Shown: in pieces, positions 24,430 to 39,724 of the stretch
Layout: every line of letters starts with the position of its first letter
How positions within the stretch are numbered: position 1 is the stretch's first letter
From: Rickettsia typhi
GTDB taxonomy: Bacteria; Pseudomonadota; Alphaproteobacteria; Rickettsiales; UBA1997
DNA length: 39,773 nucleotides
Assembly: GCA_945862535.1 (NCBI GenBank)
Contig: CAMAYG010000014.1
Location: 1-39,773 of the forward strand
Direction: 5' to 3'
Made by a program: the position numbers and the translations under genes
Notes under the pieces: generated by a model
What the model was told of the DNA's origin: nothing
The model's input: only the letters and a program-made list of their open reading frames with translations
The model's database searches: none

Positions 24430-27400
24430 ATGTTATCGTTGGTAAAAATAAATAAAATGACACGATTTACAGAAGATAGTAGGGTTAAAATACCAACAAT
24501 AATTCATCTCACTCGCCTTGGTTATAATTACCTTTCGCTAAATGGGGCTAAACGGGATGAAGGAACTAATATTTTTTCTGAAATTTTTATAGAAAATATT
24601 GTTCAAATTAATGAGGGAATCGAAAAAGAAGATGCTCGAAGATTGCTCGAAGATGTAAAGCTCGCCTTAGAAAATGAAGATCTTGGGAAGGCTTTTTATG
24701 AAAAATTAATCGCCACTTCTGGTCTAAAATTAATCGATTTTACTGATTTTAGTAAAAATCGTTTTGATGTAGTAACAGAATTAACTTATAAAAATGGCGA
24801 TGAAGAGTTTCGCCCCGACATAACTTTGTTGGTGAACGGCATGCCTTTAATATTTATTGAGGTAAAAAAACCAAACAACAAAGATGGTATAATTGCCGAA
24901 AGAGATCGCATCAATAAACGATTTAGAAATCCTAAATTTAGAAGATTCGTTAACATCACCCAGCTTATGGTTTTTTCTAATAATATGAATTATGACGATG
25001 AGCAAATCGACCCTTTGCAAGGTGCTTTCTATGCTTCTCCTTCATATCGTGAACCGATATTTAATTATTTTCGAGAAGAAGAAATTTTTGATCTCGCATC
25101 GATTTTAAAGCCAGAAAATGAAGAAATCGAGAATGGTATTTTAAAAGATAATAATCTCAGTGCAATAAAACACAGCCCCGAATTTATCACAAATAAAGAT
25201 TCAAACACCCCTACCAACAAAATTTGCACCTCATTATTTTCTAAAAAACGATTGGCTTTCTTGTTAAAATATGGCATTACTTATGTTAAAGAAAGTGCCA
25301 GATTAGAAAAGCATATCATGCGTTATCCACAAATTTTTGCAACAAAAGCCATTGAAAAAAAATTAAACGAAGGAGTAAAAAAGGGAATCATTTGGCATAC
25401 TCAAGGAAGCGGAAAAACTGCTTTGGCATTTTATAATGTTCGCTTTCTCACCGATTATTTTCAAAAAAAATCTATTATTCCAAAATTCTATTTTATCGTT
25501 GATCGTATCGATCTTTTAACTCAAGCACAGCGAGAGTTTGTAAGTCGTGGCTTGGTGGTTCATATCGTTAAATCTAGAGATGAATTTGCTCAAGATATTA
25601 AATCAACAAAGGTTATTAATAATAACGGAGGAAAGCCTGAAATTACCGTTGTAAATATTCAAAAATTTCAAGACGATCCTAATGTTTTAAGCTCGAATGA
25701 TTATGATTTAAATATTCAAAGAATTTATTTTCTCGATGAAGTTCATCGAAGCTACAACCCCAAGGGAAGCTTCTTGGCAAATTTGAGTCAATCAGATGTT
25801 AATGCCATAAAGATCGGCCTTACGGGGACGCCACTTCTGGGCGATGACTATAATTCAAAATCGCTCTTTGGAGATTATATTCATAAATATTATTATAATT
25901 CTTCAATTGCCGACGGCTATACTCTGCGACTAATTCGCGAAGAGATTGCTACTTCTTATAAAATGCAATTATCACAAATTCTTGATTCGATAGAAATTGA
26001 AAAAAATAGTGCAGAAAAGAAATTTATTTATTCTCATCCAAAATTTGTTGAGCCGATGCTCGACTACATAGTCAATGATTTTGAGGATAGTAGAATTGCT
26101 TTTGGCGATAATTCTATTGGTGGCATGGTGATTTGCGATAGCTCGGATCAGGCTAAAAAAATATATGAAATTTTTCAAGAAAAATATCAAAACAAAACCA
26201 CTGAAGAACATAAAGTAAAAACTGCCTCTTTAATTCTTCACGATATTAATGATAAAGAATTTCGCAAAGATCAAGTTGAGGCTTTTAAAAGCGGAGAAAT
26301 CGATTTGTTATTTGTTTATAACATGCTTCTAACAGGCTTTGATGCTAAAAGACTCAAAAAACTTTATCTTGGTCGCATAATCAAAGATCACAATTTACTT
26401 CAGGCTTTAACTAGAGTTAACAGAACTTATAACAAATTCCGCTATGGTTATGTGGTTGATTTTGCCGATATTAAAAAGGAATTCGATAAAACTAACGAAG
26501 CCTATTTCAAAGAGCTTCAAGGCGAGCTTGGCAATGAATTTGAAAATTACTCGCTATTATTCAAATCCCGTCAAGAAATAAATCAAGAAATCGAAGAAAT
26601 TAAAGATTTATTATTTCGCTTTGACTTAAAAAATGCCGAAATTTTTTCTCAGCAAATATCCGAGATAAAAGATCGCGAAGAAATTAGATTAATTAAACAA
26701 GCCCTTGGCAATGCTAAGATGCTTTATAATTTAATTCGTTTATATGGGCATTCTGATTTATTGAATAAATTAGATTTTAAAAAGCTTGAAAAGCTTTATA
26801 GCGAAACGAGTAATCGCTTAGATAATCTAAACCTTATAGAGAGTCTTAACAATCAAAATAACAATATTCCAATTTTAAATCTTGCCCTCGAAGATATTTA
26901 CTTCGAATTTCACAAAACCAAAACAGAAGAGTTGATTTTGGCGGATAAATTAAAAAACATGCTTCGCATTACTCGCGAAGCAATGCTAAATAATCTCGAT
27001 CAGCAAGATTTGCAATTTATTTCGCTTAAAGAAGAGCTTGAAAGACTATTTAAAAAGAAAAATCTTAATGAAATTGCCGGGGAAGATATCAATCAAAACA
27101 TTGCAATTCTAGAACAAATTCACGATCGCATTAAGGAAATTAATCGAGAAAATAACCTTCTTAAATCCAAATATGAAAATGATTCGAAATATGTTAGAAT
27201 ACATAAGAGACTTATTGAAAACAAAGGCTTTAGCAATCAAGAACGGAAAATTTGCGAAGCATTAAATGAAATAAAAATCGCTACCGATGAACGGGTTTTA
27301 CAAAATTCTCAAATCCTAAAAAACGAAAGTTATTTTAATGCCGAAGTTGGAAGTAGCATTATTAAGCAATTTAACCTGCGGGGCATAGAATTAAACCCCG

Positions 27401-27477
27401 ATTCCACCAAATACATCAACAATTTAATTGTCAAAGAATATATGAACGAAATTAAAAACGAGGCTAAAATATGGTAA
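24430..27477 (+). CDS. hsdR: Type I restriction enzyme, R subunit
   Basis: Motor-nuclease subunit of a type I restriction system; it translocates DNA and cuts unmethylated DNA away from the recognition site. Residue numbers use the 24430 start. The PD-(D/E)xK-type nuclease is at 130-146 (DITLLVNGMPLIFIEVKK, with Asp130, Glu144, Lys146). The SF2 helicase core has Walker A QGSGKT (325-330), the DEVH box (436-439) and GLTGTP (463-468), with later helicase motifs around FVYNMLLTGFDAKR. The C-terminal ~300 residues are helical and charged, as usual. The start may be 24457 (Met10, MTRFTEDSRVK), which better matches the family. The stop overlaps hsdM by 7 bp. Confidence 0.95.
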   Translation: MLSLVKINKMTRFTEDSRVKIPTIIHLTRLGYNYLSLNGAKRDEGTNIFSEIFIENIVQINEGIEKEDARRLLEDVKLALENEDLGKAFYEKLIATSGLKLIDFTDFSKNRFDVVTELTYKNGDEEFRPDITLLVNGMPLIFIEVKKPNNKDGIIAERDRINKRFRNPKFRRFVNITQLMVFSNNMNYDDEQIDPLQGAFYASPSYREPIFNYFREEEIFDLASILKPENEEIENGILKDNNLSAIKHSPEFITNKDSNTPTNKICTSLFSKKRLAFLLKYGITYVKESARLEKHIMRYPQIFATKAIEKKLNEGVKKGIIWHTQGSGKTALAFYNVRFLTDYFQKKSIIPKFYFIVDRIDLLTQAQREFVSRGLVVHIVKSRDEFAQDIKSTKVINNNGGKPEITVVNIQKFQDDPNVLSSNDYDLNIQRIYFLDEVHRSYNPKGSFLANLSQSDVNAIKIGLTGTPLLGDDYNSKSLFGDYIHKYYYNSSIADGYTLRLIREEIATSYKMQLSQILDSIEIEKNSAEKKFIYSHPKFVEPMLDYIVNDFEDSRIAFGDNSIGGMVICDSSDQAKKIYEIFQEKYQNKTTEEHKVKTASLILHDINDKEFRKDQVEAFKSGEIDLLFVYNMLLTGFDAKRLKKLYLGRIIKDHNLLQALTRVNRTYNKFRYGYVVDFADIKKEFDKTNEAYFKELQGELGNEFENYSLLFKSRQEINQEIEEIKDLLFRFDLKNAEIFSQQISEIKDREEIRLIKQALGNAKMLYNLIRLYGHSDLLNKLDFKKLEKLYSETSNRLDNLNLIESLNNQNNNIPILNLALEDIYFEFHKTKTEELILADKLKNMLRITREAMLNNLDQQDLQFISLKEELERLFKKKNLNEIAGEDINQNIAILEQIHDRIKEINRENNLLKSKYENDSKYVRIHKRLIENKGFSNQERKICEALNEIKIATDERVLQNSQILKNESYFNAEVGSSIIKQFNLRGIELNPDSTKYINNLIVKEYMNEIKNEAKIW

Positions 27478-29102
27478 CTCAAGATTTTGAAAGAAAAACC
27501 AAAGAATTAATCGATAGCCTAAAGGCCGTCTGTACTTCGTTTGGGCTAGGTAATGACGGCAATGAATTTACCATAATTACCCAAGTTTTTTTTTATAAAT
27601 TTCTTAACGATAAATTCGCTTTTGAAATTAAAAAAATCGATAGCAAATTAAAAAATTCTTCAACTTTCGAGAAAGATATTTTGGCTCTTAAAGAAAGTGA
27701 GTTCGAGATGCTAAAAATGCAACTCCCCGCCGATACCGCTCGCCTAAAAGCCGAGCATTTTATTGGAGCACTTTTTGAAAAACAAAATCAGCCAGAATTT
27801 GCCAAACTTTTTGACGATACTTTGCGAGATATTGCCATTACCAACAACGATATTTTCTCGGTAAAAACTGAAGGCGGAGCGAAAATAATTTTATTTGATC
27901 GAGTAAGTGAATTTATCACCGACACCTCAAGGCGCGATGCCTTTTGTCGAGCCATTATTAACAAATTAGTCGATTTTAGTTTTGAAAATATTTTCAATCA
28001 AAAATATGATTTTTATGCGACAATTTTTGAATATCTCATCAAAGATTATAACAAAGATAGTGGCGGAAAATATGCCGAATATTATACCCCCCATGCTGTC
28101 GCCAAAATCATGGCAGCAATTTTAGTGCCAAAAGAAGTTCAAGGAAAAATCCAAAATGTCACTTGTTATGACCCTTCCGCAGGCTCTGGAACCTTGCTTA
28201 TGAACATTGCTCATGCTATTGGTGAAAATAAATGCAGTATTTATTCGCAAGATATTTCGCAAAAATCATCGAGCTTGCTTCGTTTAAATTTGGTTTTAAA
28301 TAACCTAGTTCATTCAATTCAAAATATTATTCAAGGTGATACCATGCTTCATCCTTATCACAAGGAAGGAGTTGATTTGAGGCGATTTGATTACATCGTT
28401 TCCAATCCGCCATTTAAATTAGATTTTAGCAATGAAAGAAATAATTTAGACGGCAAAGAAAATCAAAAAAGATTTTTCGCCGGAATCCCCAAAGTGCCAA
28501 ATAAAGATAAAGATAAAATGGCAATTTATTTGCTTTTTATTCAGCATATAATGTATTCTTTAAGTGCCAAAGGCAAGGGTGCGATTGTGGTGCCAACGGG
28601 CTTTATTACTGCTCAAAGTGGCATTGAAAGAAAAATACGGGAGAAATTAATTGATGAAAAAATGTTGGCGGGAGTTGTTTCGATGCCAAGCAATATTTTT
28701 GCCACTACCGGCACTAATGTTTCGATTCTTTTTATTGACAAAAATAACAAAGAAAATGTGGTTTTGATTGATTCTTCAAAGCTTGGTGAAACTGTCAAAG
28801 AAGGCAAAAATCAAAAAACCGTTTTGAGTGAAGATGAAGAAGATAAAATCATCAACACTTTTAACAAAAAAGAGGCGATCGATGATTTTTCGGTGGTGGT
28901 TTCTTATGATGAAATTAAGGCTAAAAATTATTCATTGAGCGCGGGGCAATATTTCGATGTTAAGATTGAATATGTTGATATTTCTAAAGCAGAATTTGAT
29001 GCTAAAATGCAGGGCTTTAGCGATAATTTAGAGAAGATGTTTGGTGAGTCGAGAGATTTGGAAGTGAAGATAAAGAAAGAGTTGAAGGGGTTGGGGCTAT
29101 GA
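27471..29102 (+). CDS. hsdM: Type I restriction-modification system, DNA adenine methyltransferase subunit
   Basis: N6-adenine methyltransferase of 543 residues, a normal size. A helical HsdM N-terminal domain (1-~170) is followed by GKYAEYYTPHAVAKIMA (199-215), the SAM-binding motif I DPSAGSGTLL (234-243) and the catalytic NPPF (312-315). The 3' end of hsdM overlaps hsdS by ATGA (29099-29102), and its start overlaps hsdR, so all three subunits are likely co-translated. With two HsdM and one HsdS it would form the methylase. The presence of all three intact genes suggests an active system. Confidence 0.96.
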   Translation: MVTQDFERKTKELIDSLKAVCTSFGLGNDGNEFTIITQVFFYKFLNDKFAFEIKKIDSKLKNSSTFEKDILALKESEFEMLKMQLPADTARLKAEHFIGALFEKQNQPEFAKLFDDTLRDIAITNNDIFSVKTEGGAKIILFDRVSEFITDTSRRDAFCRAIINKLVDFSFENIFNQKYDFYATIFEYLIKDYNKDSGGKYAEYYTPHAVAKIMAAILVPKEVQGKIQNVTCYDPSAGSGTLLMNIAHAIGENKCSIYSQDISQKSSSLLRLNLVLNNLVHSIQNIIQGDTMLHPYHKEGVDLRRFDYIVSNPPFKLDFSNERNNLDGKENQKRFFAGIPKVPNKDKDKMAIYLLFIQHIMYSLSAKGKGAIVVPTGFITAQSGIERKIREKLIDEKMLAGVVSMPSNIFATTGTNVSILFIDKNNKENVVLIDSSKLGETVKEGKNQKTVLSEDEEDKIINTFNKKEAIDDFSVVVSYDEIKAKNYSLSAGQYFDVKIEYVDISKAEFDAKMQGFSDNLEKMFGESRDLEVKIKKELKGLGL

Positions 29103-30253
29103 GAAAGATGTCCAATATAACTTTAGGTGATTTGATAGAATTTCAAAGAGGTTATGATTTGCCAAAATCAGAATTTAAAATTGGTTATGTACCAGTTATT
29201 TCGTCAAATGGTATATTGGGATATCATAACCAAGCAAAAGTAAAAGGTCCAGGAATTACAATTGGTCGAAGTGGCACTGTTGGATTGCCTCATTTTATAA
29301 ATGAAGATTTTTTCCCTCACAATACAGCTTTATTTATTAAAGATTTCAAAGGAAATTATCCAAAATATGTTTTTTATCTTCTTAAAACACTTTCGTTAAA
29401 TAATATGGGTAGTGGCTCGGGTGTTCCAACTATGAATCGTAACCATCTGTATCCTTTAAAAGTATCTGCATATTTAGATTTTACTGATCAGAAAAAAATC
29501 GCCGCCATCCTTTCCGCCCTCGATGCCAAAATTGAACTCAATAATCGCATCAATGCCGAGTTGGAGAAAATGGCAAAAACCATCTATGATTATTGGTTTG
29601 TGCAATTCGATTTCCCCGATTGCAACGGCAAGCCCTATAAATCTTCGGGCGGTGCAATGGTTTGGAGCGAAGAACTAAAAAGAGAAATTCCCGAGGGATG
29701 GGAGGTTTTGAAAATGAATAAATTGTTAATCAAAAATATCGTTAAGTTTAATTTTAATAGCAATAAAAGCATTGATACCATTGATTTATCGGTTATGCCT
29801 AGCTCAACTATGTGTTTAAACCAAAAAAATAGCAGTGATTTTTTTACTACAAATCTATTTATTTTGAATAAATTTGATATTCTTTTTGGGGCGATAAGAC
29901 CATATTTATTAAAAGCAGGATTTTCACCATTTGATGGCTTAGTTACTGGCACCGTCCATTCTTTTAAAACTAAAAATGAAAACTTTTATAATTTTGCACT
30001 TTTAACGATGGTTAGCAATAGCATGTTTGACTTTGCCATCTCTAATTGTAAAGGCACAAAAATGCCAGTTATTGGGGCTGATGATTTACTAAGTTATAAG
30101 GTTGCATTTAATGAACAAGTTGCAATAAAATTTAACAAGTTTTTAGAATTTAAGCATCTTATTTCAAACAATGTTAAACAAAACCAAACTCTCGCCGAAC
30201 TCCGCGATTGGCTGTTGCCAATGCTTATGAATGGTCAGGTTAAGGTAGAGTAA
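29099..30253 (+). CDS. hsdS: Type I restriction-modification system, specificity subunit
   Basis: DNA-recognition subunit of 384 residues. TRD1 covers roughly 1-128, the central conserved helix region 129-172 (DFTDQKKIAAILSALDAKIE, ending in FVQFDFP), TRD2 about 190-330, and the distal conserved helix about 335-384 (NQTLAELRDWLLPMLMNGQ). The two helical regions set the spacing between the two halves of a bipartite target. The start at 29099 is favoured by the ATGA overlap; a second Met lies 3 codons on. The target sequence cannot be inferred. Its stop is 2 bp from that of the convergent large gene, leaving no room for a terminator between them. Confidence 0.95.
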   Translation: MRKMSNITLGDLIEFQRGYDLPKSEFKIGYVPVISSNGILGYHNQAKVKGPGITIGRSGTVGLPHFINEDFFPHNTALFIKDFKGNYPKYVFYLLKTLSLNNMGSGSGVPTMNRNHLYPLKVSAYLDFTDQKKIAAILSALDAKIELNNRINAELEKMAKTIYDYWFVQFDFPDCNGKPYKSSGGAMVWSEELKREIPEGWEVLKMNKLLIKNIVKFNFNSNKSIDTIDLSVMPSSTMCLNQKNSSDFFTTNLFILNKFDILFGAIRPYLLKAGFSPFDGLVTGTVHSFKTKNENFYNFALLTMVSNSMFDFAISNCKGTKMPVIGADDLLSYKVAFNEQVAIKFNKFLEFKHLISNNVKQNQTLAELRDWLLPMLMNGQVKVE

Positions 30254-30255
30254 TT

Positions 30256-33200
30256 CTATCTCCATCGCGGCGCAAAGGATTGGTTGTAATTTTGCTGTTG
30301 CCTAACTCTTCCGCCTAATTGGCTATGTGAATTTGCAACATTTTTTTGAGAAGTAGCTTTTTTCACAGCTCCATTAAGGCTTTCAATGAGCTCTGGCTCT
30401 TCCTGAATAGAATTAGGTTGTGTTATTTTTTGCAAGATAATTTTAGCTTTTGGCGATAAAATAGAAGAGCGATTAAAAGCATTATTAGCAATAGAATCTC
30501 TTTTAGGTTCTCCTTGTGGAATTTTCAACATTTTTACATCGTCACAAAAATCTTCTTCGACAATATCCGATTCTCGACAATCTTTAATATAACTTTTAAT
30601 AATTGCTAAAGCGGAAGAAGATTTAGAATTATTTAAAGAATTAGGAATTTTATCTTTGAGAATTTCGGCATCTTCAGCGGTAATAAATTTTAGTTTTTCT
30701 TTAAAAATACCCTCTAAAGAAGGAGTATTGAAATAAAGTCTTGCCTGAAAACCCTCTCTTGAGCCTAGATAATCCTTGCAGGCAACAACAGCTTTAGTGA
30801 AAGCTTGCAATATTTTGTTGGGCATTGCCTCGATTTCTTCTGGGCTTAATTGGTAATTATCTTTTAAAATAAGGTCAACGATATGTTTTTTAGCTTTATC
30901 TTCTAACTTCTGACTGATGTCTGGGCTAGATTTAGCAATTAAACTTATAAACCTAGAATTTTCTATGCTATCAGCAAAAAAGCAAATTAACCCCAATTCT
31001 TTTGCTGTAATATTTTTTGCCGAGTAATTCATTGCCAAATCTTTACAGGCAACAACAGCTTTGGTGAAAGCTTTCAATCCTGGGTTGGGCATTGCCTCAA
31101 TTTTTTCTGGTCTTAACTGGTAATTATTTTTTAAAATAAGGTCAATGATATGTTTTTTAGCTTTATCTTCTAACTCCTGACCGATGTCTGGGCTAGATCT
31201 GGCAATAATCTTTAATAAATAATGACTATAAGAAGCTGATTGTTTATTATCACAAAGTCTAAAGGTAAAGCCTAATATATCTTCGCTAATATATTCTTCT
31301 CTATTGATTTTAATAAAAATACCACTCATAATTAGCTTGTTAATATTTTTATCATCTAAAACAATTTTTGCCAAATTGCTTACTGAAATAGAATTAAGAT
31401 TTTCTTTAATTTGTTCTTCCGTTAAAATACCTTTATCAAAAGCAATCATAATAAACTGGTTAAATTTATCAATTAATTCTAACTTATTAGGACCTCTCTC
31501 TATTGAAAGATCATAATTTAACAAATTTAACAGCTGAAAATTAAACACAATAAGACTTATATCAGTAATACTAAAAGGACTTCTGTTATTATAAAGACCA
31601 TCAACCGCACTAGCTTCATATAATATAAATTGAAACAATCCAGCTATACTGTCAGGAGAATAGACACATTCCAAAGCTGATTTTTCTTTTTCCTCTAGGT
31701 TGCTTTTGTTGGAAAGATCGCTAATATGAGTAACAGCTAAAGCCTGAGCCTTTTCAAACCTGTCTTGTAAATTTTTTGGAAAACTATTATCTTTTATAAA
31801 TTTAACAATTACCTGCTGTGCCAAACTAAAATTATCACTATTATATTCAATATAATGATTGTTAGGGTCGATAACTCTTGCATAATCAATACAATCTTTG
31901 CGAAATTTCTTGTAGCTAGGATGACGAACATAAGTAAGAGAACCGTCTCTAATATCGCCATTATTTAACGATATAAGAATCGATGATGCTAATATTTTGC
32001 TAAGTAGTGGATTAATATGCCAATTTTGCCTAATTAAATTTTCCACCCGTTGATTAGGGCTAAGAAAGGTAGCTTGATACATTTTTTCTTCCCTATAAGA
32101 ATTACTAAAATTTGCATCAATAATCATATTCGCAAAAGTTTCTTGCTCTCCTTTTGTTGCAAATCTATTTGCAACAAATATTGCTAATTCTGGGTCTTGT
32201 AAAAGAATTTTTTGTAGATTTTCTTGTTTTTCAGGGCTATTTTCGAGCTCTGCTTGGGTACATTTAAGCTGTTGCAAACCCTTTTTATAAACATCATTAA
32301 CAGATTTTATAATATCACCTGCAGGAGCTAATAAATCGGCAACCATCAATTCTAGCATCGATAAAGTAAGCCCACAACCTATTACCGAATTAGCATGGCT
32401 GTCGTTAGTTTCTCTTCCTAAAATATATTTTTCTGCAAATGAGCCAAGGTGAACCCTGTTTCCAAAATCAATAAAAGCGGAATAGCGAGAAATAACCTTT
32501 GCCATCGTTTGCTTTAGAATTAATGGCTGTTTTAGGCTGTAAATTTCAAGCCTTTGTGCCATACCGCCGACACAAAGACGAATTTCACCATCATCAAAAA
32601 AGCCACCATAAAATAGTAAAATCTTTTCTTTTTTAGTATCTTGGTCTGGAATAGTGTCAATTTCTCTAATTATCTCAATAAATCTATTTACCAAATCGTA
32701 GTTACTGTCTACTACTGCCTGACTTTTTAAATAATTAATCCAGAAATCAACAGCTGGCACGATCTCTTTTTCATTTGTATCTTTAAGATTTTTTATTAGC
32801 CATTCACAGGTTTCTGTTTTAAGTTTTTGTAATTCACTTTCAGGATAATTTCGTAGTTGTTTTTTGTATAACCCAGAGAAAAGCTCTGGTTCTACAACGG
32901 TGCTGTTTTGTCCCCGCTGTTTCTCTTCTTCTTGCAATTCTTCGGAATGGTAGGAAACAATATTACATCGTGTTAAATTTTTTGTAACGATTTCCAATGC
33001 TATTTCTTTTATCTTTCGATTCTCTTTTGTGCCTTTAAGATCTTTGCTTTCAAGCTCTTGCTTTAATCTATCTCTTACATTAACTAGGCTTCGACGGTCT
33101 TTATTGATATATTGCAAAGAAAAATAGCTAAATTTATCAAAATAATCATGTGATATTAAGCAATCTGAACCTTGATAATTTTGAGGGAGATTAGTTTTTG

Positions 33201-33291
33201 CTGATTTAAGTTCTGTTGCTAATTCTATTAACTTTTTATATAAAATATTGTCTTCATCGTTGTTTTGATTGAGTGTTTTATTGTTTTTCAT
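30256..33291 (-). CDS. Large hypothetical protein with internal duplication
   Basis: A 1011-residue soluble protein that I do not recognise. It has no signal peptide or membrane segment. The sequence is rich in Lys, Glu, Asn and Leu helices, suggesting an alpha-helical scaffold. Two near-copies of one block, offset by 89 residues, lie in the C-terminal third. They start SSPDI(G/S)Q(E/K)LEDKAKKHI and run to FTKAVVACKD, about 50 residues each. The last ~60 residues are Ser/Asn/Gln-rich and end in NQSFAPRWR. Its isolated position, convergent with the restriction operon, and its AT-rich upstream region suggest a separately controlled accessory gene. A secreted effector is possible but unsupported by any motif. 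Confidence 0.75.
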   Translation of the reverse strand: MKNNKTLNQNNDEDNILYKKLIELATELKSAKTNLPQNYQGSDCLISHDYFDKFSYFSLQYINKDRRSLVNVRDRLKQELESKDLKGTKENRKIKEIALEIVTKNLTRCNIVSYHSEELQEEEKQRGQNSTVVEPELFSGLYKKQLRNYPESELQKLKTETCEWLIKNLKDTNEKEIVPAVDFWINYLKSQAVVDSNYDLVNRFIEIIREIDTIPDQDTKKEKILLFYGGFFDDGEIRLCVGGMAQRLEIYSLKQPLILKQTMAKVISRYSAFIDFGNRVHLGSFAEKYILGRETNDSHANSVIGCGLTLSMLELMVADLLAPAGDIIKSVNDVYKKGLQQLKCTQAELENSPEKQENLQKILLQDPELAIFVANRFATKGEQETFANMIIDANFSNSYREEKMYQATFLSPNQRVENLIRQNWHINPLLSKILASSILISLNNGDIRDGSLTYVRHPSYKKFRKDCIDYARVIDPNNHYIEYNSDNFSLAQQVIVKFIKDNSFPKNLQDRFEKAQALAVTHISDLSNKSNLEEKEKSALECVYSPDSIAGLFQFILYEASAVDGLYNNRSPFSITDISLIVFNFQLLNLLNYDLSIERGPNKLELIDKFNQFIMIAFDKGILTEEQIKENLNSISVSNLAKIVLDDKNINKLIMSGIFIKINREEYISEDILGFTFRLCDNKQSASYSHYLLKIIARSSPDIGQELEDKAKKHIIDLILKNNYQLRPEKIEAMPNPGLKAFTKAVVACKDLAMNYSAKNITAKELGLICFFADSIENSRFISLIAKSSPDISQKLEDKAKKHIVDLILKDNYQLSPEEIEAMPNKILQAFTKAVVACKDYLGSREGFQARLYFNTPSLEGIFKEKLKFITAEDAEILKDKIPNSLNNSKSSSALAIIKSYIKDCRESDIVEEDFCDDVKMLKIPQGEPKRDSIANNAFNRSSILSPKAKIILQKITQPNSIQEEPELIESLNGAVKKATSQKNVANSHSQLGGRVRQQQNYNQSFAPRWR
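30778..31208 (-). repeat. Direct repeat encoding the 89-residue duplication
   Basis: About 160 bp at 30778-30941 is closely matched at 31045-31208, an offset of 267 bp (89 codons). DNA identity is high enough to align by eye throughout. The intervening ~100 bp has no third copy. Confidence 0.85.
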
Positions 33292-33611: not shown

Positions 33612-36600
33612 ATGAAGAAATACAAAATATTAATACTCGTTACCATATCAATTATTACAACATCACTCTTTGCTAAATCTTACAACATAAAACACAATTT
33701 ACCAAATACGATTAAATCGAAATCTATTTCTCAAAATCAATTATCTCAACAATTATCTCAAAACCCCGCACTATCGGAAGTGAAAAAAGAATCTCTCGAG
33801 ACAAATAAAATCAATCAAGAAAACCCTGTTAAAATTAGCAAAACATCGAAAAATATAGAGCCAGCAAAAAAGCAAGACAGCATCGCCAAAAGCAATAAAA
33901 TTTATTCCAACATCAAAACTGCAAAAAATAAAGGCAATAGCCAGCATTATTTTAAAACTTTAAACAACGATTCGCAAGCTTTGCCTAAAGTTATTGCAAC
34001 AATCAAAAGATCAACCTCTAAACCTAAAGACTCTGAGTTTAAAGATATATTAGAGCCAAGGCTAGAAGAAGAATCTTTAAACATTGACGATGAGGTTTTA
34101 GAATCTTTGGCCTTAGATATTAGCGAAAATAGTCAAGAAAAGACTAAAAGCGAATCGATAGATAATACAGATTCGCCAAAACAAGATAACTTAATTACAA
34201 AACTAAGAGACGATATTAGAGTCAGTGAACAATTAATCTGTGAAACCTGCGGTGTCAAAAACTTATCGATAAATAATATGCCATCAAGCTACACCAATAT
34301 TATGGCTGATGGAGTAAGAATAAACCCTGCCAATATTCAATCTTATAACCTCGAAATGCTCGACAAAAACAACTTTGAGAGCATGTTAGTAACAAATAGC
34401 ACTAATTCTAATATCGCAAACCCCGACAGCATTAGCAATGGCATTAATTTTATTAGTAAAAAACCAAAAAGTAATAAAATCGATGTCAAAGTTAACAAAG
34501 GTAATTACGGCACTAAGGAGATAAATATTAATACTAATACCATTTTTAAAGGCGGTTCATTAAAAATTGGTGGCACAACTAAAGACAGACAAGGAATAGA
34601 TAGCGACAGAAATGGTATTGTCGAAATGCCAAATAGCAGGAATCGAAATTTTCACAGCACTATTTATCTTGAAAACGTCTTGGGATTTACTGTTAACTCT
34701 AGTTTTGGCATCGCTCAAGATTATCGCTATAGCAATATTGCTCGCTATACTTCTAGCAGTAACTTAAATAATGGAGATAACGCCGGTGGAACTACGACTG
34801 GCGGAACTACCAGCGGAACTACGACTGGTGGAACTACTGGGACTACGACAGGGACTACGACTGGCGGGACTACTGGGACTACGACAGGGACTACGACTGG
34901 TGGAACTACGACTGGCGAAACTACTGGAACTACTGGAACTACGACTGGCGGGACTGCAACTGGCGGGACTACGACTGGCGGAACTACTGGAACTACGACA
35001 GGGACTACGACTGGCGAAACTACTGGAACTACTGGAACTACGACTGGCGGAACTACCAGCGGAACTACGACTGACGGAACTACGACTGGCGGGACTACGA
35101 CTGACGGAACTACCACCGGGACTACGACTGGCGGGACTACTGGGACTACGACTGGCGGGACTACTGGAACTACGACTGACGGAACTACGACTGGCGGAAC
35201 TACCAGCGGAACTACGACTGGCGGGACTACGACTGGAAATAACATAACTTGCCCTACTGGAACCACATTATATAACGGTAGTTGCTATAGTTGTCAATCT
35301 GGCACCTTATTCGAAGACAAATGTTACAAGTGCAATGATCCAGAAACTTTTAATCCTGTAACCAAACAATGTGATTGCTCGGGTGCCAATGCCACTTGGG
35401 ACAAAAGATTTTTTTGGGAAGGTGAAAGTTGTAAACCATATGGCCGCTGTGGAAATCGCAAAATCGACTTTGGTGGATTATTTGGTTGCGATTGTGCTAG
35501 TGGCTACGCGCAAAATTTTCTCTCTTTAGATGGTGATTGCGGTAAGCTTTTTACTAGTAATCGTTATAATCCAGTATCAAAATCTGGCTCTTCCACTCCA
35601 ACAGTAATTGATGCAATAAAAACTGTTATAACATCAGTTGTGCAATTGGCTGTTAATGGCTTTAAAGAGCTTTTCACTAACCTTAATAACCCTTTAAGCG
35701 AGAATACAGGCTCTCAAATAAATCAGAATGCAATTCAAAATAATATTGTAAGAAATAACATTAATACTACCAGTCAACAATTTAGCTTAGAGGCGGAAAG
35801 AAAGACTTCTTTTGGCTCTTTTAAGTTAATTAGCAATATTAATAGTCAAAAACAAAAAAATAATTTGTTAAATGATTGGCAATTAGACCAGATATATCTT
35901 GAAAATTCCTACAAAATTCGCAGTAAAATTAAGGAAATAGAAGAGATTTTCTTAGGAATGAGTCAATTTACTCAAAAACTAAAATATAATAACGATTCGC
36001 AAAATAATATAATTGATAGTGGCTACAACTATAAGAGCACGGCACTTTTTGGGCAAATCAATAACTCTTTTTTGCTTGACAAAATCAAAACTTCTATTGC
36101 TAGCAGAATAGATCATTACAAACAATTTGGTAAAAATTTTACCCATAAAATTAATGCAACTTTTCATCATAACAATAATCTTATTAGTAAAATTGGTTTT
36201 GCCACTGGAAATAAAACCCCAATGGCTAGTTTTGGCGATATTGCGGCAAATAATAATAGCAATATCAAGCTCGAAAAGAACCAAAGTTTTAATTATGACA
36301 CTAGCTATAAAAAGCAAAACCTCGAAATTGGTGCGGGATATAATCGCAATAGCATAGCAAATATTACCAAAATCGACAGCGAAAATAATCTTGTCAATTC
36401 ACATAATTTGGTTGTAATAGCAAACTACAATATTCGTGCATCCTACCCAATTTTTAAAACCACCACCGCTAAAATCGAGGCTCAACATAGTAGATTTAAC
36501 TTTGAAACAGGAGACCTGCCTCTGGCAATGCCAAATTACAAGGCCTTTCTAACATTAGACCAGCAATTATCAAAGAACTTTGTTGTAAATATTAAAACTA

Positions 36601-36887
36601 ATTGGAGTGGTAGTCAGGATTTAGATAAATTTTACGGCGTTCGTTATAACCTCGATGGCAGTCGTAAAAAGTCTAAATCTCCTCATTTCTTTACTTTAGA
36701 TAGTCAGGCGAATCTGAAAATCAATAAAAATCACTCGGTAACTTTTGGCGCTGATAATATTACTAACTACATTCAATCTAGAATTGATTCGCAAATGGCA
36801 ATAAGCAATAACCAGCTAATGCTTAACAATATTTGGGGGTCTAATCTTGGGCGATATATCTACATCAATTACAAAATTAGCATGTAA
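33612..36887 (+). CDS. TonB-dependent-receptor-like outer membrane protein with Thr/Gly repeat and Cys-rich insert
   Basis: A 1091-residue protein. A signal peptide is at 1-21 (LVTISIITTSLFA). Residues 22-200 are low-complexity and Lys/Ser/Asn-rich. A plug-like domain follows at about 205-285 (CETCGVKNLSINNMPSSYTNIMADGV and SISNGINFISKKP), then barrel strands with GIDSDRNGIVEMP to about 385. Residues 392-542 are a [GTTT/GGTT]-type repeat, and 547-643 carry 12 cysteines with two CxxC and two CxC pairs. The barrel resumes around 740 (e.g. SRIDHYKQFGKNFTHKINATFHHNN and GNKTP) and ends YINYKISM, ending in methionine rather than the usual terminal aromatic. The substrate is unknown. No TonB box is evident. 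TonB and its partners are not in this window. Confidence 0.78.
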   Translation: MKKYKILILVTISIITTSLFAKSYNIKHNLPNTIKSKSISQNQLSQQLSQNPALSEVKKESLETNKINQENPVKISKTSKNIEPAKKQDSIAKSNKIYSNIKTAKNKGNSQHYFKTLNNDSQALPKVIATIKRSTSKPKDSEFKDILEPRLEEESLNIDDEVLESLALDISENSQEKTKSESIDNTDSPKQDNLITKLRDDIRVSEQLICETCGVKNLSINNMPSSYTNIMADGVRINPANIQSYNLEMLDKNNFESMLVTNSTNSNIANPDSISNGINFISKKPKSNKIDVKVNKGNYGTKEININTNTIFKGGSLKIGGTTKDRQGIDSDRNGIVEMPNSRNRNFHSTIYLENVLGFTVNSSFGIAQDYRYSNIARYTSSSNLNNGDNAGGTTTGGTTSGTTTGGTTGTTTGTTTGGTTGTTTGTTTGGTTTGETTGTTGTTTGGTATGGTTTGGTTGTTTGTTTGETTGTTGTTTGGTTSGTTTDGTTTGGTTTDGTTTGTTTGGTTGTTTGGTTGTTTDGTTTGGTTSGTTTGGTTTGNNITCPTGTTLYNGSCYSCQSGTLFEDKCYKCNDPETFNPVTKQCDCSGANATWDKRFFWEGESCKPYGRCGNRKIDFGGLFGCDCASGYAQNFLSLDGDCGKLFTSNRYNPVSKSGSSTPTVIDAIKTVITSVVQLAVNGFKELFTNLNNPLSENTGSQINQNAIQNNIVRNNINTTSQQFSLEAERKTSFGSFKLISNINSQKQKNNLLNDWQLDQIYLENSYKIRSKIKEIEEIFLGMSQFTQKLKYNNDSQNNIIDSGYNYKSTALFGQINNSFLLDKIKTSIASRIDHYKQFGKNFTHKINATFHHNNNLISKIGFATGNKTPMASFGDIAANNNSNIKLEKNQSFNYDTSYKKQNLEIGAGYNRNSIANITKIDSENNLVNSHNLVVIANYNIRASYPIFKTTTAKIEAQHSRFNFETGDLPLAMPNYKAFLTLDQQLSKNFVVNIKTNWSGSQDLDKFYGVRYNLDGSRKKSKSPHFFTLDSQANLKINKNHSVTFGADNITNYIQSRIDSQMAISNNQLMLNNIWGSNLGRYIYINYKISM
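34785..35237 (+). repeat. Thr/Gly-coding minisatellite
   Basis: A 453-bp array of degenerate 9-15-bp units such as GGAACTACGACTGGC and GGGACTACTGGGACT. It encodes 151 residues made almost only of Thr and Gly, with a few Ser, Glu, Asp and Ala. All units are multiples of three, so changes in copy number keep the frame. Long shadow frames are open on both strands here because of the repeat, and are not genes. Confidence 0.95.
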
Positions 36888-37143: not shown

Positions 37144-37701
37144 ATGAAAAAATTAACCCTATTATCTCTATTATTAGTAATGCAGTCTTGTATTATTGGG
37201 GCTGGGAATAATTCAAAAATTATAGCCAATCAAAATAATCATTTCCCAAAAATGACTGGCATTGATTTAAATGGCAAAAAACAAGAAATTCCTGCTGTTT
37301 TTAAAAATAAATTCAACCTAATAGTCGTTGCTTTTAAAAAAGAGCAACAAATCGAAGTCAACACTTGGATTAAGGCTCTGGAGCCAATGCTAAAACAAGA
37401 TCCAAATCTAAGTTTTTATGAAATTCCATTAATTTACGAGCTTTCGGTTTTTAAAAGAATGTTCCTTAATAATGGAATGCGATTTGGAATTACCGATGAA
37501 ATAGCCAGAAAAAGAACTATCACGGTTTATGCAAATCGTCAAGAGTTTTTCAAACTTACCCAGATGAAAGAAGAGCAAATTTATGCACTATTACTTGATT
37601 CTAGCGGAAAAATTATATGGAGAACAGAAGGTGTTGCCGACGATAAGAAGATCTTAAGCTTAAAGAAAATCATCTTAAAAGAAGCCAAAACAAATATATA
37701 G
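37144..37701 (+). CDS. ATP10-like lipoprotein (thioredoxin-like fold)
   Basis: A 185-residue exported protein with a lipoprotein-like signal (LTLLSLLLVMQSC, Cys16). The mature part follows the pattern of the mitochondrial ATP10 family: FPKMTGIDLNGKKQEIP, NLIVVAFKKEQQIEVNTWI, the central FNNGMRFGITDEIARKRTITVYANRQEF-like region (here FLNNGMRFGIT...), and IYALLLDSSGKIIWRTEG at the end. Mitochondrial ATP10 helps assemble the F1Fo ATP synthase membrane part; bacterial relatives are poorly studied. The fold is thioredoxin-like, yet no CxxC is present, so a redox role is unlikely. It has its own promoter and lies between the receptor-like gene and a decayed region. Confidence 0.6.
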   Translation: MKKLTLLSLLLVMQSCIIGAGNNSKIIANQNNHFPKMTGIDLNGKKQEIPAVFKNKFNLIVVAFKKEQQIEVNTWIKALEPMLKQDPNLSFYEIPLIYELSVFKRMFLNNGMRFGITDEIARKRTITVYANRQEFFKLTQMKEEQIYALLLDSSGKIIWRTEGVADDKKILSLKKIILKEAKTNI

Positions 37702-38962: not shown

Positions 38963-39042
38963 CTTTTGATTTTTGATTTTTCCTGTTTATTAATGATAAA
39001 AACTTAAAACACGATTAGATAGTTTTTTAACTAGAATATTGG

Positions 39043-39131
39043 CGGAGAGAAAGGGATTCGAACCCTTGATACAGTTTTACCCGCATACCTTCTTAGCAGG
39101 AAGGTGCCTTCAGCCTCTCGGCCATCTCTCC
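39043..39131 (-). tRNA. tRNA-Ser (anticodon GCU)
   Basis: Minus-strand reading begins GGAGAGATGGCCGAGAGG, has the anticodon stem CCTTCCTGCTAAGAAGG with GCU in the loop, a long variable arm (TATGCGGGTAAAACTGTA), the T arm GGGTTCGAATCCC, and ends TCTCTCCG. CCA is encoded directly after (39042-39040). The long variable arm and G73 fit serine. It reads AGC and AGU codons. Confidence 0.96.
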
Positions 39132-39414: not shown

Positions 39415-39457
39415 TTATCAAAGAAAATCAGAATTTAAATTGATTTTATTATTCATA

Positions 39458-39558
39458 GATCCTGCAACTTCGTGCAGGATGACGACAGAAGGCAGATCCT
39501 GCAACTTCGTGCAGGATGACGACAGAAGGCAGATCCTGCAACTTCGTGCAGGATGACG
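39458..39558. repeat. Tandem array of a palindromic element (three units, 37-bp period)
   Basis: Units start at 39458, 39495 and 39532. Each contains ATCCTGCA-ACTTCG-TGCAGGAT, a near-perfect 8-bp palindrome with a short loop, followed by GACGACAGAAGGCA in the first two. Such hairpins are known as abundant intergenic repeats in several host-associated alphaproteobacteria. An inverted fourth copy is at 39688-39724. Confidence 0.9.
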
Positions 39559-39617
39559 ATTGAGAACGATTTTACAACAAGAAACTAGACTTCTTTTTCT
39601 GCGAAAACTTTTTCATT

Positions 39618-39687: not shown

Positions 39688-39724
39688 GTCATCCTGCACG
39701 AAGCGAAGCGAAGTTGCAGGATCC
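39688..39724. repeat. Inverted copy of the palindromic element with internal expansion
   Basis: GTCATCCTGCACGAAGCGAAGCGAAGTTGCAGGATCC-type sequence: the same element as 39458-39558 in reverse orientation, with the GCGAA loop sequence duplicated. Both orientations together make a large inverted-repeat structure over about 270 bp. Confidence 0.85.

Follow-up and report, generated by a model that had tools for sequence, protein, structure and literature searches.

A predicted TonB-dependent receptor with a Thr/Gly array and a twelve-cysteine module in loop 3

Most accounts of TonB-dependent receptors (TBDRs) treat them as transporters or signal transducers, and a gene on a draft contig of a probably Rickettsiales lineage raises the question of what such a barrel may be doing when a long run of threonine and glycine, followed by twelve closely spaced cysteines, interrupts it. 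The window, that is, the whole stretch of DNA analysed, is 39,773 nucleotides long. The initial annotation had described an open reading frame at 33612-36887 with a Thr/Gly stretch and 12 cysteines, and the frame, composition and cysteine positions confirm this description: the frame (P0001) starts with ATG and stays open for 1091 codons with zero internal stops. The features are listed below with the basis for each.

33612-36887, forward strand: whole open reading frame P0001, 1091 aa, predicted TBDR with loop-3 insert
33612-33677, forward strand: signal peptide, residues 1-22 (judged by eye; model helix at residues 3-23, pLDDT mostly below 50)
33678-34133, forward strand: low-complexity linker rich in S, K, N and E, residues 23-174 (pLDDT mostly below 50)
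34134-34466, forward strand: plug domain, residues about 175-285 (Pfam Plug and fold alignments)
34239-34250, forward strand: plug CxxC, here CETC, residues 210-213 (family alignment)
34467-34733, forward strand: barrel strands 1-5, residues 286-374 (structure model)
34734-35753, forward strand: entire loop-3 insert, residues 375-714 (between strands 359-374 and 715-731)
34785-35237, forward strand: Thr/Gly array, residues 392-542 (composition and tandem-repeat analysis)
35250-35540, forward strand: 12-cysteine module, residues 547-643 (cysteine positions and VirB6-like homology)
35604-35684, forward strand: predicted helix, residues 665-691, C-terminal to the cysteine module (low confidence in the full model)
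35754-36884, forward strand: barrel strands 6-22, residues 715-1091 (PF00593 and structure model)
37144-37701, forward strand: downstream gene P0002, 185 aa, ATP10-like (Pfam match, PF05176)

Elsewhere in the window, a type I restriction-modification operon that appears complete (hsdR, hsdM and hsdS by family matches) lies upstream at 24430-30253, and a 1011-aa protein that matched nothing in Pfam, NCBIfam or PADLOC is encoded on the reverse strand at 30256-33291. The far end holds a tRNA-Ser (gct) on the reverse strand at 39040-39131, a 31-base stretch beside it that is present twice (39138 and 39244), and a 37-base palindrome-containing unit repeated in tandem nearly three times at 39457-39559 (none expected by chance). 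A hairpin related to this unit was seen by eye near 39690, and the repeat resembles a dispersed palindromic element lying at the end of the contig.

Plug, barrel and the position of the insert

Family profiles, a structure model and fold alignments were used to place the receptor parts. Full-length P0001 matches the barrel family PF00593 (E 3.2e-10; 40.9 bits versus a cut-off of 27), and residues 700-1091 scanned alone match it at 2e-12; the match is absent for fragments starting at residue 543 or 661, which may be a HMMER filter effect of the preceding biased stretch. The Plug family is unlisted when the full-length protein is scanned against Pfam, and residues 1-390 scanned alone match it at E 4.6e-4 and 21.1 bits, under the curated cut-off of 23.9. 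Fold alignments begin at residues 159-193, most of them placing the start of the TBDR part at about residue 175 and not at residue 200 as first annotated; within the plug, model pLDDT is below 50 up to residue 224 and 50-65 beyond. Solved TBDRs (Cir, PirA, PfeA, FepA and BtuB) align with the model at 8-10 percent identity (Foldseek), and 22 barrel strands were counted by hand, without four 3-residue elements and without the plug strands. A stretch reading LPKVIATI, picked out by eye, aligns with a similar near-N-terminal stretch in the homologues and is a candidate TonB box. The earlier proposal of a TBDR plug and 22-strand barrel is thus borne out by Pfam, structure model and fold alignments, and the assignment of P0001 to the TBDRs is supported at the level of sequence and model. 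Because its barrel matches those of 22-strand, plug-bearing TBDRs, an autotransporter or intimin-type adhesin was rejected.

The same model indicates on which side of the membrane the insert would lie. Ten even-to-odd strand connections are 2-5 residues long, as periplasmic turns are, and every connection of more than 5 residues is odd-to-even by strand count. Because the insert joins strands 5 and 6 and the long connections are all odd-to-even, the predicted barrel topology puts it on the outer side, which supports the initial annotation in placing a stalk and a cysteine part outside the barrel. Both of these parts stand; the extent given for the insert does not, as it runs from residue 375 to 714 and includes the predicted helix 665-691 (pLDDT up to 88 when the module is modelled alone).

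Receptor family, divergence and transport machinery

Scanning named genomes yielded 29 loci, chiefly from beta- and gammaproteobacteria, 21 of which were aligned (L033, L039, L041, L042, L045, L048, L050 and L055 being excluded). Among the relatives, the receptor is present in 2 of 34 (the window's own genome and G014, from another genus of the same family, whose contig is L031), and in the order as a whole in 4 of 263 genomes (these two, G034 and G055); both same-genus genomes searched, G001 and G002 (79 and 91 percent complete), gave zero receptor matches. As a single query, P0001 had no matches in viral contigs and weak TBDR matches in six plasmid records.

Loop 3 comprises 340 residues in P0001 versus 50-67 in the 21 aligned homologues, none of which carries a Thr/Gly or Cys insert, and within this scope the earlier remark that no standard receptor has this layout holds. 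The longest open reading frame at 28 homologue loci is 828 aa (at L042 the frame taken is other than the receptor's, at L050 it starts late, and the partial L055 is left out). A TBDR with a Thr/Gly stalk and a Cys head is also unreported in the open-access literature, among the titles and abstract beginnings of the matches listed, and in two papers on Rickettsiales genomes (PMC10847448, PMC9352585) word searches of the main text found no 'TonB'.

Of the 22 aligned rows, 20 retain the plug CxxC, P0001 (C210/C213) among them; the rows without it are L056 and L057. A thioredoxin-like gene lies directly downstream at 24 of 28 loci (again excluding L055), and at 23 of these the aligned piece contains a CxxC; the loci without the gene are L044, which keeps the plug CxxC, L048, L056 and L057. 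The thioredoxin-like protein of G014 matches ResA/StoA models, under their cut-offs. Next to P0001, this usual position is occupied by P0002, which has one cysteine and is without a CxxC. P0002 was rejected as a thioredoxin partner (hhalign probability 0.9 percent versus the partner alignment A5), and elsewhere in the 93 percent complete genome the search for a thioredoxin-like partner gave just a weak 105-aa frame (7.2e-4). P0001 belongs to this kind of TBDR, marked by a plug CxxC and a thioredoxin partner, and probably arose as a metal-uptake receptor.

To estimate how far P0001 has departed from the family, we compared it with columns conserved among 18 core homologues. It keeps 15 of 40 such columns in the plug and 54 of 113 in the barrel; L031, a relative from the same family, keeps 37 and 102, and L056 and L057, which are without the insert, keep 12-13 and 61-66. 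Among the residues lost are the RG at plug positions 262-263 and, in the loop at 875, a conserved E and H; W1075, G1076, G1080 and R1081, also conserved, are kept. In the tree, the P0001 branch has about 5 changes per column versus a median end branch of 0.27, and the L056/L057 stem has 4.3; these long branches meet, so the placement of P0001 is unsure. Since L056 and L057 are about as diverged without any insert, erosion alone is no proof of changed function.

The genome encodes a TonB_C domain on C1 (9.7e-18, over the cut-off), and C2 has a further match that falls short of the cut-off. It also encodes at least three other TBDRs by PF00593 genome search, a lower bound because the search missed P0001 itself. 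Energised transport is therefore possible. Adjoining another TBDR (L027:5594-7381) is a 595-aa frame with a TTG start; it contains a tandem repeat rich in His, which hints at metal binding.

The Thr/Gly array and the cysteine head

The array consists of 151 residues (92 T, 50 G, 3 S, 3 D, 2 E and 1 A) and has a G+C fraction of 0.576 versus 0.32 in the N-terminal part, 0.31 in the barrel and 0.39 in the Cys part. It is repetitive at the DNA level (units of 12 to 126 bases by TRF), with a longest exact internal repeat of 47 bases versus a mean of 21.9 and a maximum of 38 in 200 synonymous-codon shuffles, and the listed copies are all spaced by multiples of 3. Searching 62 family genomes with the array pattern gave 11 matches here and one short match in a different protein context; the reversed pattern, as a control, gave two. 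The array is known from one draft genome, assembled in 37 contigs.

The cysteines of the head, at residues 547, 558, 561, 571, 574, 587, 589, 607, 613, 626, 628 and 643, led to a relative within the same genome. The head matches residues 930-1020 of a 2031-aa VirB6-like frame (L025) with E 8.2e-4 in a protein search of 263 genomes of the order and 6e-7 in a single BLASTP comparison, and its cysteines and their flanking residues can be aligned to the VirB6-like module. The Smith-Waterman score is 112, versus 47.9 +/- 7.2 and a maximum of 80 for 1000 shuffles that kept the cysteines in place, and the similarity therefore goes beyond cysteine spacing. With the module reversed the score is 47, and seven other large frames from four VirB6 regions score 29-58. 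Judged by these sequence comparisons, the Cys head and residues 930-1020 of the VirB6-like protein are homologous. The 2031-aa frame itself has a TrbL/VirB6 domain at 1293-1499, slightly under the cut-off in hmmscan and slightly over it in the genome search, and is one of five VirB6-like frames in the genome (1007-2031 aa, on five contigs: L069, L070, L071, L072 and L025). Besides the one on L025, three of these frames are cysteine-rich, with 31-52 Cys. One report describes the flanks of VirB6 as varying greatly in Rickettsia (PMC2653234).

A two-row profile, run against 263 genomes from the order and 385 from the class (overlapping sets), found no third copy of the module. Weak matches to frames of 30 and 77 aa in G042 and G028, at E 0.002-0.003, were rejected as chance and did not reappear with this profile in the order set. 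Phages and plasmids held nothing at E 0.1, and among viral contigs none of 87 pattern matches was confirmed. The initial annotation had proposed a profile search of the module against cysteine-rich domain families; its best Pfam match is at E 0.88 and its best solved chain at E 0.16, and no known Cys-rich family (EGF-like or other) was recognised for the head in these searches. Modelled alone, the module gives short hairpins and the helix 665-691 at a confidence (pLDDT 49.8, pTM 0.23) too low for a comparison of folds.

Possible roles and known systems

The fold, topology, family and head homology computed for P0001 suggest that the ancestral uptake role has probably changed. The explanation to which we give most weight, tentatively and at somewhat less than an even chance, is that a metal-type TBDR was re-tooled as a surface display or binding protein by means of a loop-3 stalk and Cys head. 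The barrel would serve as outer-membrane anchor, with extracellular loop 3 enlarged to about 340 residues; the Thr/Gly tandem array would form a flexible stalk, easily re-lengthened; and the 12-Cys module would be a head that touches something outside, either a host or prey surface or a ligand-carrying protein or complex. The insert would then be surface-exposed in vivo, its cysteines may form disulfides, and transport would be lost or changed. Many family-conserved residues are gone and the neighbourhood is partner-less; we count the plug and barrel, the absence of the insert from the 21 aligned homologues, the eroded positions, the long branch, the missing adjacent partner gene, the in-frame duplication of the array and the head homology in favour of a re-tooled receptor, and the encoded TonB_C and other TBDRs, the retained plug CxxC, the similar divergence of L056 and L057 and the low-confidence model of the head against it.

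The same points bear differently on a less likely account, in which P0001 would be a working TonB-dependent transporter, with the Cys head on its stalk serving to capture a protein or large ligand and pass it to the plug. Host-protein-stripping receptors do use long loops (TbpA loop 3), and the plug, the 22-strand barrel, the plug CxxC, the encoded TonB_C and the location of the insert in loop 3 are all consistent with capture; however, many family-conserved plug and loop residues are gone and the usual thioredoxin-like neighbour is missing. We consider it unlikely that the gene is instead a decaying TBDR under weak constraint that gathered a repeat array and a stray module neutrally. The very long branch, the weak plug match and the patchy occurrence of the gene (no match in G001 or G002) would suit decay, but the 1091-aa frame is intact across a 453-base array whose copies are spaced by multiples of 3, 12 spaced cysteines and 22 predicted strands are present, and W1075, G1076, G1080 and R1081 are kept. 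That the array was mis-joined or given a wrong length in assembly is very improbable, even though the draft is in 37 contigs, tandem arrays are error-prone and a second strain was not found: the frame is kept on both sides and throughout the array, and the flanking pieces are TBDR parts predicted to fold as one 22-strand barrel, which would be unexpected from a false join. This flank argument tells against a false join, whereas the copy number may be wrong.

If the re-tooled receptor is the right reading, uptake barrels could be converted into surface display scaffolds, and the locus would give a testable lead on how other cells are encountered by a poorly known lineage, probably of the Rickettsiales. 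A further idea, which we regard as improbable, is that one extracellular recognition module sits on two machines, a VirB6-like T4SS subunit and a stalked former metal receptor, and addresses the same target cell or surface, with the receptor as a tether that would bring the secretion system to its target. The likeness to the Rickettsiales VirB6-like proteins (RvhB6) lies in the Cys module common to P0001 and the 2031-aa protein; the difference is that VirB6 is an inner-membrane channel subunit, whereas P0001 is a predicted barrel.

Among receptors of known structure, we know of none of the Cir, PirA, PfeA, FepA or BtuB type whose loop 3 holds a Thr/Gly and Cys insert as large as this one. In TBDRs of the TbpA/LbpA type, an enlarged loop 3 grips an extracellular protein, and TbpA chains are weak profile matches to P0001 (best E 1.2e-6); to our knowledge, TbpA and LbpA have neither a Thr/Gly stalk nor a 12-Cys head. 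A partner of the TbpB type was sought at the adjoining gene, which is the ATP10-like P0002. A further likeness, by description, is to the TBDR-pTFP pair of Stenotrophomonas maltophilia, reported as a CQNC-type TBDR and a periplasmic thioredoxin-fold protein in the MntR regulon, controlled by MntR and induced under Mn and Fe limitation (PMC13217887). That pair and the family studied here share a TBDR with a plug CxxC and, at 24 of 28 loci in this family, a thioredoxin-like gene downstream, but the published motif is CQNC, whereas P0001 has CETC and its homologues mostly CS[IV]C; P0001 further differs in that its loop 3 carries a long insert, its conserved positions are eroded and a thioredoxin-like neighbour is missing. 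The combination of plug CxxC and thioredoxin-like neighbour, reaching from beta- and gammaproteobacteria to one same-family relative of the window's genome, bears on this recently described metal-linked receptor pair.
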